A stretch of 58,417 nt of DNA from Planctomycetales bacterium (GTDB lineage Bacteria > Planctomycetota > Planctomycetia > Isosphaerales > Isosphaeraceae), in the NCBI GenBank assembly GCA_027451885.1, contig DAIDHX010000156.1, positions 1-58,417 on the forward strand, read 5' to 3'. Position numbers and translations under genes: made by a program. Position 1 is the first letter of the stretch. Every line of letters starts with the position of its first letter. This document shows positions 49,649-58,318 of the stretch, piece after piece. The notes beneath the pieces were generated by a model, which made no database searches, was not told where the DNA came from, and was given only the letters and a program-made list of their open reading frames with translations.

Positions 49649-50608
49649 ATGCTGGGTTTTCGATTTCTCAAGGTGCCGCCGACGACCTATGTGATCCAGT
49701 ATCGCGGGGGCAAGATCGTCCGCCAGGGCGGGGGGCTTGCCTTTCTCTATTTCGCACCCCTGAACACCATCGTGCAGATCCCCGTGGCCAGCACCGACGT
49801 GCCCTTCGTCTTTAACGAGACAACCGCGGACTTCCAGCAAGCGATCATCCAGGGGCAGATCACCTGCCGCGTCGCCGACCCCCAAAAAACCGCGGCGATG
49901 CTCGATTATTCGCTCACGGCGCAAGGGGACTACACTTCGGAGGACCCCACGAAGCTCGGCGAGCGCCTCTCCAACACAGCGCAAGTCATTGCTCATGCGT
50001 TTACGCAACAAAAGGCGTTGGGGGACCTGCTGGTCGGCTCCGCGGGACTATCGGAGGAGATCCTCACCGGCCTGCGGGCTTCGCAGATGGTGCAATCGCT
50101 TGGGGTCGAGATCCTGAGCGTGGTGATACTTTCGATCAAGCCCGCGCCTGAGATGAGCCGGGCCCTCGAGGCCGAAGCTCGCGAGGACCTGCTGCGCAGA
50201 GCCGATCTGGCGATTTCCGCGCGGCGCAACGCCGCCGTCGAGCAGGAGCGCATGATCAAGGAAAACGAGCTGAATACCAGGATCGCCATCGAGCACAAGA
50301 GGGGCGAGGTGCGTGAAACCAGGCTCGCCGCCGACATCGAGATCGAGGAACGCAGGAGCACGCTCGTGGACTCGCAGGTTGCCAACCAGCGCAAGGAAGC
50401 GGAGGCCAGATCGATCGCGCTGCGGGCCGTGCTGGAGCCGATCCAGGGGGTCGACTGGCGGCTCTTGCTGGCGGCCAACGCCGCCCTCGACCCCAGGTTC
50501 CTGGTCGCGCTCGGATTCCAGGAACTGGCCCAGAACGCGGCCAAGATCGGTGAGCTCAACGTCTCGCCCGAGCTCCTCAACACACTGCTCCAGCGCGGGG
50601 AAAAATGA
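49649..50608 (+). CDS. SPFH/Band-7 domain protein
   Basis: A 319-residue stomatin-type protein. The SPFH domain spans about 5-180 (PPTTYVIQYRGGKIVRQGGG, IVQIPVASTDVPFVFNETTADFQQAIIQGQITCRV, a FTQQKALGDLL helix and LGVEILSVVILSIKPAPE). It is followed by a coiled coil rich in Glu/Arg/Ala (about 185-265) and a short end. It has no N-terminal membrane helix, so it should join the membrane peripherally and assemble a ring scaffold. GGGGAG at 49634 supports ATG 49649. Coupled to the next gene by an ATGA overlap. Confidence 0.9.
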   Translation: MLGFRFLKVPPTTYVIQYRGGKIVRQGGGLAFLYFAPLNTIVQIPVASTDVPFVFNETTADFQQAIIQGQITCRVADPQKTAAMLDYSLTAQGDYTSEDPTKLGERLSNTAQVIAHAFTQQKALGDLLVGSAGLSEEILTGLRASQMVQSLGVEILSVVILSIKPAPEMSRALEAEAREDLLRRADLAISARRNAAVEQERMIKENELNTRIAIEHKRGEVRETRLAADIEIEERRSTLVDSQVANQRKEAEARSIALRAVLEPIQGVDWRLLLAANAALDPRFLVALGFQELAQNAAKIGELNVSPELLNTLLQRGEK

Positions 50609-51636
50609 TGTTCGTGCCCTCGCCGATCATCCTCATCCACAGGGATACGCCGCTCGAGAATCTCCTCAGACGCTGGAGCACCCGGGGCCGTGCTCGATTC
50701 GTCATGAACCAGGCGTCCGAGATTGAACGAGCCCGCCTGGAAGGCTTGATCGCCAGAGGCCCGGTCGCGAGCAGAGGCCTCTTCACGGGCAGAGTTCCAC
50801 GCGCAGGCCAGTCCAGCGGGGAGGCGTACGCCGAGCTCGAGGCCGAGGATCTCGTCTATCGCGAGGCCCTGGCTTACCTTCGGCGCGGGCTCGGCAAACT
50901 GGATCGGTTTCAGCTTGTCCATCGCGATTACGTGCCAACCTTCGATTTCGGAGTTTGCCAGGTCGTCGTGGTGCTGGGCCAGGACGGCATGGTGGCGAAC
51001 GTGGCCAAGTACGTCGGACGCGTGCCGATTGTGGGCGTCAATCCCGACCCGAAGCGAATCGACGGCGTCCTGCTCCCATTCCAGGTGCCAGAGGCCCCAC
51101 GCGTGGTGGAACGCGTGCTCCAGGGATGGCACAAAACCCGCGCGGTCACCCTGGCCGAAACCGTGCTCAACGACGGCCAGCGGATGCTGGCATTCAATGA
51201 CTTCTTCATAGGTTGCTCCAGCCACGCCTCCGCCCGCTACACGCTCTCTTACGCGGGGATCACCGAGCCCCAATCGTCGAGCGGGATTCTGGTCTCAACC
51301 GGCGCCGGCTCGAGCGGCTGGCTCTCCTCGGTGTTCAACATGGCGCGTGGCGTGGCGGGCTTTGCAGGCTCGAGCGGCCCGCCGGAATTCCGCATGAAAT
51401 GGGAGGACCAGAAGCTCGTCTGGATCGTGCGCGAGCCCTTCCAAAGCCGGCAATCGCGGACCGCTCTCGTGGCCGGAATGCTCGAACCGGGGCAAGAGCT
51501 GGTCGTGGAGTCGGCCATGCCCGAGCGGGGCGTGATCTTCTCGGACGGGATCGAGCACGACTGCCTGAAGTTCGACAGCGGCACCATTGCGCGGGTTCAG
51601 ATCGCCGATCAACACGCGAACCTGGTCGTGAGCTGA
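50605..51636 (+). CDS. NAD-kinase/diacylglycerol-kinase-fold protein
   Basis: A 343-residue protein. The nucleotide motif reads GQDGMV (G125-Q126-D127-G128) in place of GGDG, and the second site is VSTGAGSSGW (about 230-240), both as in NAD and lipid kinases of the YegS/PpnK clan. It adds FNDFFIGCSSHASARYTL and MPERGVIFSDGIEHD segments. The N-terminal 100 residues are extra. The first Gly of the loop is retained and the second changed, so activity is uncertain. Its start overlaps the SPFH stop, so the two proteins are made together; a membrane-bound kinase scaffold is a plausible role. Confidence 0.8.
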   Translation: MMFVPSPIILIHRDTPLENLLRRWSTRGRARFVMNQASEIERARLEGLIARGPVASRGLFTGRVPRAGQSSGEAYAELEAEDLVYREALAYLRRGLGKLDRFQLVHRDYVPTFDFGVCQVVVVLGQDGMVANVAKYVGRVPIVGVNPDPKRIDGVLLPFQVPEAPRVVERVLQGWHKTRAVTLAETVLNDGQRMLAFNDFFIGCSSHASARYTLSYAGITEPQSSSGILVSTGAGSSGWLSSVFNMARGVAGFAGSSGPPEFRMKWEDQKLVWIVREPFQSRQSRTALVAGMLEPGQELVVESAMPERGVIFSDGIEHDCLKFDSGTIARVQIADQHANLVVS

Positions 51637-51688: not shown

Positions 51689-52468
51689 TCACGACGCCCG
51701 GGCGGCCGCCGCGTCCACAGCCGTGTCATGCAGGTAGCGCTCGATGATCTCGTCGATCGGGCCGTCCGCCATCAGGCGCCCGCGCTTCAGCCAGATCCCA
51801 CGGGTGCAGAGGTCGCGGAGCGATTCCATCTGGTGCGAGACCAGAACCACGGCGTTCGAGCGGTCGAGCAGGCCGCGGAGCCGCTCCTGGGCCCGTTCCA
51901 GAAACGCGGCGTCCCCCACCCCAAGCGACTCGTCGATGAGCAGGATCTCGGGATCGACCTCGGTCGCGATCGCGAAGGCCAGCCGCAGATACATCCCGCT
52001 CGAATAGTACTTGAGCGGCATGTCGGCAAACTCCCTGAGCCCCGTGAACTCGTGGATCCGATCGACCCGGGCCAGCATCTCACGGCGGCTAAACCCCAGC
52101 ATCGCGCCGTTGAGCAGGATGTTGTCGAAGCCGGAAAGCTCCGGGTTGAACCCCGCTCCCATCTCGATCAGCGGGGCCACCGCGCCATTCACCGCAACCC
52201 GGCCCAGCGTCGGTGGGTAAATCCGCGCCAGCATTCGCAAGAGCGTGCTCTTGCCCGCGCCGTTGCCCCCCACCACGCCGATCCGGTCCCCCTTGGCAAT
52301 CCGCAGCGAAATGTCCCGCAGCGCCCAGAACTCAGACCGCGGCGGCGGGCCCTCCCTGCGCAGCACAAGATCAAGCGCGGCACGCTTCAGCGAATAATGC
52401 TTGTCGGCGTAATTCACAAACCGCAACGACACCGCGTCGAGCTCGACAAGCGCACCCTCCGCCTTCAC
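51689..52468 (-). CDS. ABC transporter ATPase for polysaccharide export (Wzt-like)
   Basis: A 259-residue ATPase. Walker A is GGNGAGKST (about residue 60), the signature region is YSSGMYLRLAFA and Walker B LLIDESLGVGD, with the D-loop next to it and the H-loop VLVSHQME. It begins VELDAVSLRFVNYADKHYSLKR, matching the lipopolysaccharide/teichoic-acid exporter branch. The GTG at 52468 is chosen because the frame beyond it lies over the permease end; ATG 52537 is possible. No C-terminal carbohydrate-binding domain, so it is the short Wzt type. Confidence 0.9.
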   Translation of the reverse strand: MKAEGALVELDAVSLRFVNYADKHYSLKRAALDLVLRREGPPPRSEFWALRDISLRIAKGDRIGVVGGNGAGKSTLLRMLARIYPPTLGRVAVNGAVAPLIEMGAGFNPELSGFDNILLNGAMLGFSRREMLARVDRIHEFTGLREFADMPLKYYSSGMYLRLAFAIATEVDPEILLIDESLGVGDAAFLERAQERLRGLLDRSNAVVLVSHQMESLRDLCTRGIWLKRGRLMADGPIDEIIERYLHDTAVDAAAARAS

Positions 52469-52490
52469 GCTCCTGCCCCGTGGTGCAAAG

Positions 52491-53354
52491 TCAGAGCCGG
52501 AAGACCAGCTTGTCTTCCTGCGATTTGAAGATAACATAGCCAAGCCCCAGGGAAACCACCGCGATCAAGGCGGACGCCGCCAGCAATCCCAGACCAGGCC
52601 ACTCGCCCTCATAGATCACCGCGTGGAACAACTCCACGAAAGGCGCAGCCGGGTTGAGCATGAACCACCGCTGACTCTGCCGCGAAAACTGCTTGATCGG
52701 CAGCAGAATCGGCGTGAGAAAATACCACGCCTGCAAGAACACCGAGACCAGGTGCCCCACGTCGCGAAAGAACGTGTTCACCGTCGCAACAACCAGTGAA
52801 AGCCCCATCACAAAACCAAAAAAAAGCATGATCACAAGTGGAAGCGCAAGGAGCGCAAGCGACGGCCGCGCACCCAGCGGCCACAGCAACAAGAAAAGCG
52901 CACCCTGCGACAGCAAGAACGTCACAAGCGCAACCATCACCCGCGCCAGCGGAAACACCAGCTTCGGCAGGTATATCTTGCGGATCAGCCCCTCGTTCTG
53001 AATGATGCACACCGCACTCTCATTCAGACTCGTGCTCAGGAACATCCACGGAACCATCCCCGCGAACAGGAAAAGTGGGTAATTCTTGACGCCTGAGGCA
53101 ATCTGGGAAAACACGAGCGACAGGGTCGCCATCATGAGCAGCGGGTTCAGCAACGTCCACAGAAAGCCCAGCGCCGAGCGCTGATAACGCACCCGAAGCT
53201 CCTGTGAGACCATGTTTTGCACGACCGGCCAGAAGCGCATGAGCTCGGTTCGGTCGGCACGGATGCGGGCCAGCCACACGCTCGGCTGGCGCGGCCCGGG
53301 CGGCGGTGGAAAGTATTCCGTGTGGGGGACCTTGGGGGTCGTCCTGACGTCCAT
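52491..53354 (-). CDS. ABC-2 permease for polysaccharide export (Wzm-like)
   Basis: A 287-residue permease with six helices. It shows the family start FWPVVQNMVSQELRVRYQRSALGFLWTLLNPLL (33 residues; shown as landmarks VRYQRSALGFLW and LLNPLL) and the NEGLIRKIYLPKLVFPL block before helix 3. It pairs with the ATPase 22 bases downstream to export O-antigen-like or teichoic polysaccharide. ATG 53354 follows GAGAG at a suitable distance; ATG 53405 is an alternative. No glycosyltransferases for the exported chain are adjacent. Confidence 0.9.
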   Translation of the reverse strand: MDVRTTPKVPHTEYFPPPPGPRQPSVWLARIRADRTELMRFWPVVQNMVSQELRVRYQRSALGFLWTLLNPLLMMATLSLVFSQIASGVKNYPLFLFAGMVPWMFLSTSLNESAVCIIQNEGLIRKIYLPKLVFPLARVMVALVTFLLSQGALFLLLWPLGARPSLALLALPLVIMLFFGFVMGLSLVVATVNTFFRDVGHLVSVFLQAWYFLTPILLPIKQFSRQSQRWFMLNPAAPFVELFHAVIYEGEWPGLGLLAASALIAVVSLGLGYVIFKSQEDKLVFRL

Positions 53355-53447
53355 GCCGTCTCTCGTTCCCAATGCGCTGCGCCGTCTCATCCATGGACGG
53401 CCCACCGCGCGGCGGGATCTTACGGAGAACCCGCCATTCGCGGAAGG

Positions 53448-54716
53448 TCAACCCGGCAAGCCAGGCACCGATTCAACATCCAACCGCCATGCCCCAAACG
53501 GCTGAGGCACGCAGAATCCCAGCATCCGCTCGGCAGCGTAAGCTGCGAAGGCTGGGTCATTGATGGCCTCGGGCCGCTCCACGATCTCAACCTGCCCCCG
53601 ACCTCTCAGCCCCACGCGCAGGGCCTCGAACAGGGCGGCATCGGCCTCGGGATCATGGAACGGCTGGCCCGGCACGTCGATTGCCGACACGCCCCCCAGG
53701 GGCAACACAAGCACCACCGGACCCTTCGCGTCACCCAGGGCCTCGGCCATGAACGCCCCAATCCGGGCGTTCTCCTCGGGCGTGGTGCGCAGGAGCGTCA
53801 CGTTCTCGTTATGCACGTGCAGCCTGCGCTCGCGGAATCGTTCCGGCACGGTCTGGATCGGCCCAAAGTTGACCATGTCGAGCGCGCCTGTGCTCACCAC
53901 CTGCGGAATCCCCGCCCGGCCGGCAGCGCGGAGCCGATCCGGTCCCGCGGAGAGGATCCCGCCCACCACCTCGTCCGCGATCTCGGTCGTGGTCAGGTCG
54001 AGCACAGCCTGGATCTTGCCGTCGCGCACCAGTGTTTCCATCGACTGGCCGCCCACGCCGGTCGCGTGGAACACCAGCACCTCGCAGCCGGCCTTTTCCA
54101 GGATTGTCCGCGCCTGGTCGACGCAGCGGGTGGTCACGCCGAACATCGTCGCGGCCAGCACGGGCCCGCCGTCTTCCTGGTCCTGGCCCGGCCGGGACTC
54201 GATCATCCCCCGCACCGCGGCCGCGGCGTTGCCGAGCACGGTTCTCGTAAGCTGATTCAGCCCCGCCAGGTCGGCCACGGAGTGCATCATCAGAAGATCG
54301 CTGCCGCCGACGTACGGGCGCACCTGGCCGCTCGCGAGCGTGCTGAGCATCAGCTTGGGCACGCCGAAGGGAAGGGCCCGCATGGCTCGGGTGCCGATCG
54401 TGGTCCCCGCGCCGCCGCCGATGCCCAGGATCGCGTCCACCTTGCCCTGGGCGTGCAGCTCCTTCACCACCGCGGCCACCCCCTTGCTCGCGGCCGCCAC
54501 CGCCTGGCCGCGGTCGCCGCGGAGGCGCACAGCCTCGGCCGTGGTTCCCGCCGCCTCAAACACGCGCTCGCGGCTGATGTCCGGCTCGATCGCGGGCGCG
54601 CCCAGCGCCCCGGCGTCGATCACGATCGTGGCGTGGCCCCACGACCGCAAGAGCCCGCGCACATGGCCAAGCTCATGCCCCTTGGTATCGAGCGTGGCAA
54701 CCAGCACAACCGCCAT
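53448..54716 (-). CDS. UPF0261 / Tm-1-like ATP-binding protein
   Basis: A 422-residue protein of the UPF0261 family. It opens VVLVATLDTKGHELGHVRGLL, has an ATP-site region ILGIGGGAGTTIGTRAMRALPFGVPKLMLSTLASG (landmarks GIGGGAGTTI and LPFGVPKLM; about 98-130) and ATGVGGQSMETLV (about 218). It is the bacterial counterpart of the N-terminal half of the tomato Tm-1 protein. Its partner gene lies 18 bases upstream on the same strand, so the two form an operon. The natural bacterial substrate is unknown. Confidence 0.9.
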   Translation of the reverse strand: MAVVLVATLDTKGHELGHVRGLLRSWGHATIVIDAGALGAPAIEPDISRERVFEAAGTTAEAVRLRGDRGQAVAAASKGVAAVVKELHAQGKVDAILGIGGGAGTTIGTRAMRALPFGVPKLMLSTLASGQVRPYVGGSDLLMMHSVADLAGLNQLTRTVLGNAAAAVRGMIESRPGQDQEDGGPVLAATMFGVTTRCVDQARTILEKAGCEVLVFHATGVGGQSMETLVRDGKIQAVLDLTTTEIADEVVGGILSAGPDRLRAAGRAGIPQVVSTGALDMVNFGPIQTVPERFRERRLHVHNENVTLLRTTPEENARIGAFMAEALGDAKGPVVLVLPLGGVSAIDVPGQPFHDPEADAALFEALRVGLRGRGQVEIVERPEAINDPAFAAYAAERMLGFCVPQPFGAWRLDVESVPGLPG

Positions 54717-54734
54717 GGCGCATGCTCCCTGAAA

Positions 54735-55619
54735 TCACGACTCCAGGAACCGCCGGGCCGCCGGCGCGGGGATCGACTTGAACTTGCGCGTCAGCTCCCG
54801 CAGCGAATCCTCCACCGCCAGCCGCTCCAGGCTCGACGCCCCCACAAAACCAACCGCATCTGTGTGCTCGTTGATGTATGCCGCGTCTTCAGGCCGCGCA
54901 ATCGGCCCGCCGTGCGCAAGCATAATCACATCCTTCCGCACCGCATTCGCCGCCGCCGTGATCGCCCGCACCCGGGCCACCGCGTCATCCATCGACACCG
55001 CCGCCGACTTCACCCCAATCGAGCCCCCCACCGTCGTCCCCACGTGCGCGATGATCGCATCCGCCCCAGCCTCGGCCATCGCACGCGCTTCCTCTGCACT
55101 GCTCACATATACAATTGTAAACAGGTCCATCTTCCGCGCAAGCGCCGTCATCTCGAATTCCTTGCGCACGCTCATCCCCGTTTCCTCGAGAATCTGCCGG
55201 AACATGCCGTCCACAATCGCGTGCGTGGGGAAATTGTTCACCCCCGAAAAGCCCATCTCCTTCACCTGCAACAGCCAGTGCCACATCCGCCGCCGCGGGT
55301 CGGTGGCGTGCACCCCGCAGATCACCGGAATCTCCTCAACCACCGGCAAGACTTCATACTGGCCGATCTCCATCGCCGTGGCGTTGGCGTCTCCATACGC
55401 CATGAGACCCGCCGTCGAGCCGTGGCCCGCCATCCGGAATCGCCCCGAGTTGTACACGATGATCAGGTCGCCCCCGCCTTGCTCGATGAACTTGGCGCTG
55501 ATGCCCGTCCCCGCACCCGCCGCGATGATCGGCTCCCCACGCTCGAGCGTCCCGCGCAATCGTTCAATCACTTCCACACGCGTATAGGGATTACCCCGGC
55601 CCGTCCACGGATTGGGCAT
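54735..55619 (-). CDS. PEP-hydrolase-like TIM-barrel protein (Tm-1 C-terminal type)
   Basis: A 294-residue TIM-barrel protein of the phosphoenolpyruvate-hydrolase-like/TIM-barrel signal family. Landmark blocks: PIIAAGAGTGISAKFIEQGG (about 30-50), IVYNSGRFRMAGHGSTAGLM (about 54-73), VCGVHATDPRRRM (about 98-110), GFSGVNNFPTHAIVDG and GADAIIAHVGTTVGGSIG (about 185-202). It is the separate bacterial form of the C-terminal half of Tm-1, adjacent to the UPF0261 gene. It could act on a phosphoenolpyruvate-like compound; the reaction is not proven. Confidence 0.88.
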   Translation of the reverse strand: MPNPWTGRGNPYTRVEVIERLRGTLERGEPIIAAGAGTGISAKFIEQGGGDLIIVYNSGRFRMAGHGSTAGLMAYGDANATAMEIGQYEVLPVVEEIPVICGVHATDPRRRMWHWLLQVKEMGFSGVNNFPTHAIVDGMFRQILEETGMSVRKEFEMTALARKMDLFTIVYVSSAEEARAMAEAGADAIIAHVGTTVGGSIGVKSAAVSMDDAVARVRAITAAANAVRKDVIMLAHGGPIARPEDAAYINEHTDAVGFVGASSLERLAVEDSLRELTRKFKSIPAPAARRFLES

Positions 55620-55744: not shown

Positions 55745-57634
55745 TCAGTCGCTGTCGTCCGCCGGGCTCACGGCTCTGACCCCAATGCGAGCGGCCAGGC
55801 GCAGCTTCTGCGATCCCGGCATCTGCTTCAGGTACTGGCCGCGGACGGCTTCCAGCCAGCGGATTTCCCGGCCTTCATAACTCGCCACAACCCGGGTAAG
55901 CACCGGCCGCGGGTCGGCGAAAGCCCGCGCGATGCCGGCGTCAAGATCCGCGTTCGCCGCGATCTCGTTATACCCCACCCCCACCGCGCTCGCGAACGCG
56001 GCGTAGTCCACCCGGGCGATCTCGGTGGCCGTGGTGCGGCGATACACCGGCTCCTGCAACATCTGCATGTAATGATACGTACCGTCGTCGATCACAAAAA
56101 ACTTCACCGGCAGCCCGCGCCTGGCCGCAGTCGAAAGCTCCATCGCCGCCATCAAGAAACAGCCGTCCCCCGTGACGCAAACCACCTGGCGCTCGGGCGC
56201 GACATGCTGGCCGGCGATCGCCGCCGGGATCGCCCAGCCCATGCTCTGGTTGTTCGCGGGTGCGAAATAACGCCTGGGGGCCTGGACCTCGACCGCCTCG
56301 CTGGCCCAGTGGGTCGACGCCGTCACGTCGATGAAGAACAACGTCTCCGGGCCCAGGTTCGCGCGCAGCCGGCTATAGAGCAGCATGGGATCAACCGCCG
56401 CGTGAATGCGCGGGGTCGCCGCCTCCTGGCGGTCGGCCGCGCGGGCGCACGCAAGCTGGCGCCACAGCTTCTCGCAAGGCGCCCGGCGGATCCGGTCCCC
56501 CTCCGCCTGCAACCGATTCAGGAACATCCCCGCGTCCGCGCACAGGGTCACATGCGCAGGCACGTTCTTGCCGAGCACGGCAGGGTTGATATCGACGTGA
56601 ATCAAGGTGTCCGCCCGCGGGATGGCGTAATACGCCGTGGAGACCTCGCTATAGCGCACGCCGACGGCCAGCACCAGGTCGACCGAGCGAAACGCCGCCT
56701 CCGCAGCGCGCGTCCCTTGCCGGCCATAGCCCCACCCGACCGCGAGCGGATGAGCATCCGGTATGACCCCCTTGCCCGTCACCGACGTCGCCACAGGCGC
56801 CTGCAACAACTCCGCAACCGCCGCAAGCTGCGCTCCGGCCGCCGCGCAGCCCATCCCGGCGTAGATCCCCACACGCTGACGCCGGTCACCCAGATGGCCA
56901 ACCACGCGGCCATACGCCGCCTCGTCCCAAGGCGCAGGGTAAGGAGGAGGCGCAGGCACGTCGTAATCCCACACGGCCGTGAAGAGCGGGTAAGGCACCA
57001 CCACCGCCGCCGGTCCCGGCGTACCAAGCACCGCGATCCGGAACGCCTCGAAGATCGCAGCCGGAATCTCGGCCTGATGCCGAACCTCGTAAACCGCCTT
57101 CGACACCGGCCGGAGCAGGGCAGCGTTCGCAAGCCCATGCACCTGGCCAATTGGCGCATGGGGCGAACGATCGATATCAGTCACGAGCGCCACGATCGGC
57201 ATGCCGTCATAAAGCGCTTCGCCCATGCCGGTCAGGCAATTCGTGATGCCCGGGCCCGGCACGACCGAAAACACACCCACCTCGCCGGTCACCCGCGCGG
57301 CGGCGTCCGCCATCACGCTCGCCGAGAACTCATGCGCCACGAGCAGGTACGGCATCGACCGGGCCTTAAGCGCATCCCAGAACTCATTGTTCTGAGCACC
57401 CGGAATCCCGAACACAGCCCGGGTTCCAAGACACTGAAGCGCAGCCGCGGCCGCCTGCGCGCCCGTCATCTTGCCGCCCACGCCCGCTCTGCGCGAGAAC
57501 CGGCCCAGCTCCACGCCGGCCTCACTCGGCTGCGCGGCCAGCCCCACCGCCGCGCTCCCGATCAGCCCCGTGATTTCGAAAAGCTGCCTGCGATTGAGCG
57601 CTGCCGACACGAAGTCGTTCCTTCCTTGAGCCAA
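55745..57634 (-). CDS. ThDP-dependent enzyme of the acetolactate-synthase superfamily, Tat signal
   Basis: A 629-residue ThDP enzyme. Three domains follow a Tat-like signal (R15-R16 in LNRRQLFEITG, hydrophobic LIGSAAVGLA to about residue 33). The PYR domain has the ThDP-activating Glu E102 in HEFSASVM; the middle domain spans about 240-385; the PP domain has the GDG motif with D490 and the metal-binding DDG loop where most family members have NNG. Members make acetolactate, sulfopyruvate products or other 2-keto decarboxylations; the reaction is not fixed. The signal would place it outside the cytoplasm, which is odd for a ThDP enzyme. It is upstream of and in line with the PEP-hydrolase-like gene (125-base gap). 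Confidence 0.8.
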   Translation of the reverse strand: MAQGRNDFVSAALNRRQLFEITGLIGSAAVGLAAQPSEAGVELGRFSRRAGVGGKMTGAQAAAAALQCLGTRAVFGIPGAQNNEFWDALKARSMPYLLVAHEFSASVMADAAARVTGEVGVFSVVPGPGITNCLTGMGEALYDGMPIVALVTDIDRSPHAPIGQVHGLANAALLRPVSKAVYEVRHQAEIPAAIFEAFRIAVLGTPGPAAVVVPYPLFTAVWDYDVPAPPPYPAPWDEAAYGRVVGHLGDRRQRVGIYAGMGCAAAGAQLAAVAELLQAPVATSVTGKGVIPDAHPLAVGWGYGRQGTRAAEAAFRSVDLVLAVGVRYSEVSTAYYAIPRADTLIHVDINPAVLGKNVPAHVTLCADAGMFLNRLQAEGDRIRRAPCEKLWRQLACARAADRQEAATPRIHAAVDPMLLYSRLRANLGPETLFFIDVTASTHWASEAVEVQAPRRYFAPANNQSMGWAIPAAIAGQHVAPERQVVCVTGDGCFLMAAMELSTAARRGLPVKFFVIDDGTYHYMQMLQEPVYRRTTATEIARVDYAAFASAVGVGYNEIAANADLDAGIARAFADPRPVLTRVVASYEGREIRWLEAVRGQYLKQMPGSQKLRLAARIGVRAVSPADDSD

Positions 57635-58298
57635 CCTTCAGGGCGCAAATCTTCTCAGTGTGAACTCCTCTTTCTTTCGGCTCTTCCAGGCCGCTCCCTT
57701 GGACGTCACGGCCAATCCACCCCCACAAACCCGCCGCATAACCGCGCATCCCGGTAAAACCCGAGCACACTCCACCCCCGTCAATCCACCCCTAATCCCC
57801 AGGCCGTTATCTCCACGAACGCCCAACCCCGCTCAGCCCCACGAGCAATTCAACCTTCACCCCGCGCACCGCGGACGCGCCCCCTCGGCCCGCGGGCGCC
57901 AACCGCGGGCCGCCGCCACCAACCGCCATATTGCCAAGGAACTTCCGCGGGATTCACCCGCTCGCAACCAGACCGCCGCCCGCCGACCGCTGGGGCTCTG
58001 ACCTCGGAGGCTCGCGGTTGAGCCTCTGACCGCCGAGCCGCACGGCTGAGCCCCGCGACCCGTCACCGACTCAACGCCGCCGGTGTGCAGGACTCAACCC
58101 GCCGGTCGACCCGACTCAACTCCGCCAGCCTGCCCGACTCAACGCCAGCGGTCGTCCCGACTCAATCCCGCCGGTCTGCCCGGCTCAACGCCGCCGGTGT
58201 GCAGGACTCAACCCGCCGGTCGACCCGACTCAACCCCGCCGGTCGTGCCGACTCAACCCCGCCGGTCTTACCGACTCAACGCCAGCGGTCTTAACGAC
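57635..58298. other. C-rich intergenic region with a tandem repeat
   Basis: About 660 bases between the start of the ThDP gene and a truncated minus-strand gene. The first half is C-rich with no gene; the second half is the 22/23-bp tandem repeat. No promoter was convincing. Confidence 0.5.
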
Positions 58299-58318
58299 TT
58301 AACGCCGACGGTTCTTCC
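58068..58318. repeat. 22/23-bp tandem repeat (about eleven units)
   Basis: Units starting GACTCAAC or a close variant begin at 58068, 58091, 58113, 58136, 58159, 58182, 58205, 58227, 58250, 58273 and 58296. The common pattern is GACTCAAC, then C/G-rich CCGCCGGT, then five to six variable bases. A two-unit block at 58068-58112 is repeated nearly exactly at 58182-58226, so a larger 114-base duplication lies inside the array. The last unit overlaps the end of the minus-strand gene. Confidence 0.9.

Follow-up and report, generated by a model that had tools for sequence, protein, structure and literature searches.

ThDP enzymes of the AHAS type are assigned to the cytoplasm, since this is where pyruvate-like substrates, ThDP and the downstream pathways are found. 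A gene in a planctomycete contig raises the question whether one group of these enzymes has been moved across the cytoplasmic membrane. An earlier note on this DNA had proposed that the encoded protein carries a twin-arginine (Tat) export signal ahead of its PYR domain. Here we follow up this proposal in the whole stretch of DNA ("the window", 58,417 nucleotides), which is contig C156 (DAIDHX010000156.1) of the genome of a Planctomycetales bacterium (GCA_027451885.1; 6.18 Mb, 98% complete) that its named relatives place in the family Isosphaeraceae, phylum Planctomycetota, and in related genomes. As a whole, we consider it likely that a ThDP enzyme gained a Tat signal once, is exported as a holo-enzyme and has a 2-oxo acid as its periplasmic substrate.

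Gene, start codon and predicted signal peptide

The window contains an intact open reading frame (55745-57634, minus strand) for a three-domain ThDP enzyme, in which the Pfam domains TPP_enzyme_N, M and C are kept in order and all score above cut-off (E 3e-27, 3e-32 and 4e-33). The observation of the earlier note is confirmed; the start codon it had used, TTG 57634 (the first in frame), is replaced here by GTG 57610. This choice was made because of the spacing between RR and start in the orthologues and because of their upstream ribosome-binding sites. In 97 of 101 orthologues the start codon is located 4-6 codons ahead of the first Arg (exactly 6 in 75), and a Shine-Dalgarno-like site lies just upstream of this distal start in most loci examined. 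AGGA precedes GTG 57610 in the window, and no Shine-Dalgarno-like site was detected upstream of TTG 57634. The gene most likely comprises 55745..57610 (minus strand) and encodes 621 aa, and all residue numbers given here refer to this protein. The eight additional codons upstream (57611..57634, minus strand) are probably untranslated.

The enzyme starts with MSAALNRRQLFEITGLIGSAAVGLAAQPSEA, followed by G, which has the layout of a standard Tat signal. The predicted signal peptide comprises residues 1-31 (57518..57610, minus strand). The twin-arginine pair R7-R8 (57587..57592, minus strand) is followed by a mostly uncharged Ala/Gly/Leu stretch and then by S-E-A and the following G; cleavage probably takes place after A31, a site placed by eye. 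The features of a Tat substrate, i.e. a twin-arginine motif, a moderately hydrophobic h-region and an A-x-A site, are thus all present. According to a review, the Tat consensus is S-R-R-x-F-L-K with RR alone being nearly invariant, and Tat signals are less hydrophobic and richer in Gly than Sec signals (PMC7317946).

Both Arg are found in 101/101 non-redundant intact orthologue N-termini drawn from genus, family and class, and RK or KR never occurs. The orthologue motif is [S/N/T]RRx[L/A][L/F/M], usually six codons past the start, with S, N or T in front of the pair in 96 of the 101 and with hydrophobic residues at +3/+4 from the first Arg. The h-region consists mainly of Ala (33%), Gly (15%) and Leu (13%), its core is free of charge in 93/101 orthologues, and an A-x-A-like site follows in 95/101. 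RR forms the sole invariant columns of the signal and stands out because all other columns (among the first 28) vary, the commonest residue reaching 18-68%. Since our script takes the best RR within a range and hence favours a find, the cytoplasmic IlvB proteins of the same genomes served as control. RR, hydrophobic stretch and nearby start codon were found together in 100/101 orthologues versus 1/30 IlvB sequences, and the sole IlvB pass is an upstream pseudo-hit. The RR signal is not due to chance. In the orthologue at L029/L053, which has RR and the hydrophobic stretch, the usual start codon is absent within 15 codons before RR.

Genes for the Tat translocase are located elsewhere in the source genome (TatC on contig C302, two TatA/B-type genes on contig C179). 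The Tat signal proposed by the earlier note is therefore borne out by an invariant RR, a Tat-type composition and the presence of TatC and two TatA/B-type genes, and the conservation of RR among homologues, by which the note had wished its proposal to be judged, proved to be complete. The case for a predicted Tat signal, which is a comparative one, is strong.

Distribution and origin of the signal-bearing clade

An orthologue is present in 42/45 sampled Isosphaeraceae genomes, and one of the three genomes without a match holds a fragment at a contig end. This near-universal retention argues for an important role. Many members of family f3, which we equate with Gemmataceae, have the gene as well, and it occurs in f4. 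No orthologue was found in families f2, f5, f6 and f7 among the matches listed, nor was the Tat clade found outside Isosphaeraceae, Gemmataceae (f3) and f4 in the genomes sampled. In 392 genomes drawn from the phylum, seven homologues turned up that are more distant, with an aligned identity of 33-37%; all of them start at the PYR domain (MKTTGA...) without a signal. Homologues beginning only after residue 50 had been named as evidence against a Tat signal; it is solely this signal-less sister group that starts right at the PYR domain.

In the tree, which was rooted at its midpoint, a branch supported at 100/100 sets all 38 Tat rows off from the rest, which makes them monophyletic; they adjoin the seven signal-less homologues (88/91), apart from IlvB and other paralogues. 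The simplest reading is that the signal was gained once, on a cytoplasmic enzyme. This single gain, by an enzyme of the AHAS/pyruvate-oxidase type, would date back to the ancestor from which the Isosphaeraceae/Gemmataceae lineage descends. Alternatively, given the midpoint root, the signal may have been lost in the sister group.

Many Isosphaeraceae share the gene order xylose-isomerase-like TIM barrel, ThDP gene, ABC-2 permease, ABC ATPase and alpha/beta hydrolase; divergent TrmB-like and FabA-like genes lie upstream. In the window only 0.8 kb of the contig is left upstream of the ThDP gene. In the source genome the xylose-isomerase-like neighbour gets weak matches only. The ABC-2 permease and ATPase, downstream neighbours conserved in Isosphaeraceae (51689..53405, minus strand), are of the Wzm/Wzt polysaccharide type by best score, which is below cut-off. 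The pair or its permease was found at 17 Isosphaeraceae loci. It is absent from the Gemmataceae-type loci examined, which do not keep the Isosphaeraceae gene order, and the adjacency of ABC exporter and ThDP gene may therefore be plain synteny. A pathway for the product was sought in the window and in the outgroup and Gemmataceae neighbourhoods, and none is visible.

Adjoining UPF0261 and PEP_hydrolase-like genes (53448-55619, minus strand) are inserted into the conserved gene order of the window; plant Tm-1-type proteins consist of these two as halves, which are encoded here by separate genes. A functional tie to the ThDP gene was dropped as a general one, since no other locus examined has them between the ThDP and ABC genes. 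At this place a close relative (L040:6910-8688) encodes a 592-aa protein with carboxypeptidase-regulatory-like domains. Further features of the window are, close to where the contig ends, an imperfect tandem array (58066-58312; 10.8 copies of period 23, CCGACTCAACGCCGCCGGTCTGC, and a higher-order period of 114) and, elsewhere, a gene for a 343-aa protein with a weak NAD-kinase match of 24 bits (50605-51636, plus strand), which adjoins a Band 7/SPFH gene.

Catalytic core and proposed export

The ThDP machinery is conserved in the Tat clade. Across 46 aligned sequences, the signal-less ones included, there is no variation at E94 (57329..57331), the PYR-domain catalytic Glu, at the GDG of the ThDP/Mg motif (residues 481-483, 56162..56170) or at D509, H158 and K171; E94 aligns with the Glu of AHAS and AlsS. 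In the metal loop (D508-D509, 56084..56089; all three features on the minus strand), D509 is the Mg-ligand position: it lies 27 residues past D482, where the second metal ligand is expected, and is invariant including the outgroups. D508 is present in nearly all Tat-clade rows and is N, R or H in outgroups; together with the string DDGxYHYMQxLQ it is typical of the Tat clade only. The order of PYR, central and PP domains, the PYR Glu, and GDG with a metal ligand about 27 residues on are those of DC-type ThDP enzymes, and judged by its sequence the protein is an acetolactate-synthase/pyruvate-oxidase type member of the DC family. The DDG loop, which had been noted earlier alongside the signal, is indeed present, but it does not hold as a sign of export and was dropped as a marker: the ligand Asp D509 is common to the signal-less sister group. 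It also aligns with the Asp of NDG in ancestral catabolic acetolactate synthase, so that an Asp at this position is not odd.

The AlphaFold2 model has a mean pLDDT of 88.5, with values below 50 almost throughout residues 1-41, which is what a free signal peptide should give. The best matches among solved structures span the protein body (residues 46-597 and more) and are BbmA (Z 41.4), AHAS and AlsS (40-41) and glyoxylate carboligase (39). With Z values within 2-3, the structure comparison cannot separate AHAS, AlsS, BbmA and Gcl and names no substrate. The C-terminal helices (residues 584-614) form a conserved basic tail. A membrane-binding tail was dropped as an export-linked trait, because the relatives without signal possess the tail too.

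In the scenario proposed here, the enzyme would fold in the cytoplasm and bind ThDP and Mg2+ there. Its SRRxxL-type signal would then be recognised by the Tat machinery, which would carry the folded holo-enzyme over the cytoplasmic membrane, and signal peptidase would probably cleave past A31. In the periplasm, membrane invaginations included, a 2-oxo acid would be decarboxylated and the resulting carbanion/aldehyde released or ligated. Export, cleavage, holo state, activity and substrate are what we infer. In DC-type ThDP enzymes the active site is located between two subunits; a dimer of about 130 kDa would therefore have to be exported or be formed after export, which counts against the scenario. 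A search of open-access papers found no literature on Tat-exported ThDP enzymes.

It is unlikely, though the best of the alternatives, that export is Tat-dependent and the signal stays uncut, so that the enzyme remains anchored to the cytoplasmic membrane on its periplasmic side; the C-terminal helices might then contact the membrane like those of E. coli pyruvate oxidase. The conserved basic helical tail would fit, and A-x-A sites in Ala-rich sequence are not diagnostic; however, a tail shared with the signal-less sister group is not linked to export, and an A-x-A-like site occurs in all but six of the 101 signals. Less probable still is a cytoplasmic enzyme that really starts at M48 (MTGAQ), the upstream residues being untranslated or an inert N-terminal extension. 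Although the sister group starts at the same place and almost every Tat-clade row has M or L at position 48, all 101 sequences retain the open frame and RR while the rest of the region diverges, a start codon lies just ahead of RR in 100 of them, and in most loci examined a Shine-Dalgarno-like site precedes the distal start. Features of Sec and Tat signals overlap, but a Sec-type signal with an incidental RR is hardly credible given an RR without a single K in 101 sequences, a large cofactor enzyme as unlikely Sec cargo, and paired Arg in merely 0.02% of E. coli Sec signals (PMC7317946).

With Tat export of the holo-enzyme as the preferred reading, we lean towards the view that these proteins form a clade of periplasmic ThDP enzymes, the first to be described, and are 2-oxo-acid decarboxylases/carboligases with a substrate of their own that would bring ThDP chemistry into the enlarged periplasm. 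A conserved Tat version of probably single origin is a clear test case for a shift of central-metabolism chemistry into the periplasm of planctomycetes, which are known for their elaborate membranes, and also for a large ThDP-containing oligomer as Tat cargo and for an unassigned 2-oxo-acid activity. If the enzyme is exported, two planctomycete families and a smaller third may carry out an ordinary metabolic reaction beyond the cytoplasm.

Comparison with known enzymes

None of the NCBIfam models shown reaches its cut-off for the Tat-signal enzyme. TIGR00118 (biosynthetic AHAS) scores 272 bits against a cut-off of 538.35, PRK08266 ("hypothetical protein") 270 against 571, TIGR02418 (catabolic acetolactate synthase) 213.2 against 551.1 and PRK11269 (glyoxylate carboligase) 198 against 791; PRK08611 and PRK09124 (pyruvate oxidase/PoxB) remain far under theirs.

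The enzyme resembles biosynthetic IlvB (AHAS) in domain order and fold (Z 40-41, about 26% identity) and differs from it by the Tat signal and by a metal loop that reads DDG, not NNQ. The source genome has a separate canonical IlvB without a Tat signal, and the Tat-signal enzyme is therefore not the biosynthetic acetolactate synthase. Glyoxylate carboligase (Gcl) shares the fold, and the upstream xylose-isomerase-like TIM barrel of Isosphaeraceae recalls gcl-hyi operons. Gcl, however, has a Val in place of the catalytic Glu, whereas this Glu is invariant in the Tat clade. BbmA, a ThDP-dependent HKA synthase (8X3X), is the top structural match (26% identity), although its Z ties with that of AHAS within 1; unlike BbmA, the enzyme has a Tat signal and its gene shows no sign of a biosynthetic cluster.

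FAD-independent AlsS (1OZF, 4RJI, ancestral 9ZGL) shares with the enzyme the fold (Z 40.6 to 9zgl, 28% identity), the catalytic Glu, GDG, the Asp metal ligand and the PYR H..K pair. In catabolic acetolactate synthase K38 and Q485 are catalytic, and Q122, Q422, M481 and Y490 position ThDP (BlALS numbering, PMC7652814). Counted along the pairwise alignment to 9zgl, Q422 and Y490 correspond to the same residues here (Q455 and Y523). In contrast, both catalytic residues are replaced (K38 by Q73, Q485 by L518, the latter also read from the column listing and kept in nearly all Tat-clade rows), M481 is replaced by Y514, and Q122 falls at a gap beside H158 without a clear equivalent. Since four of the six residues differ, the protein should not be named acetolactate synthase. 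The Tat signal is a further difference from AlsS.

A precedent for the mode of export is glucose-fructose oxidoreductase of Zymomonas mobilis, likewise a cytoplasmic-type enzyme, which is exported via Tat with its NADP bound according to Halbig 1999 as cited in a review (PMC7317946). It is unrelated to the ThDP enzyme in both fold and cofactor.
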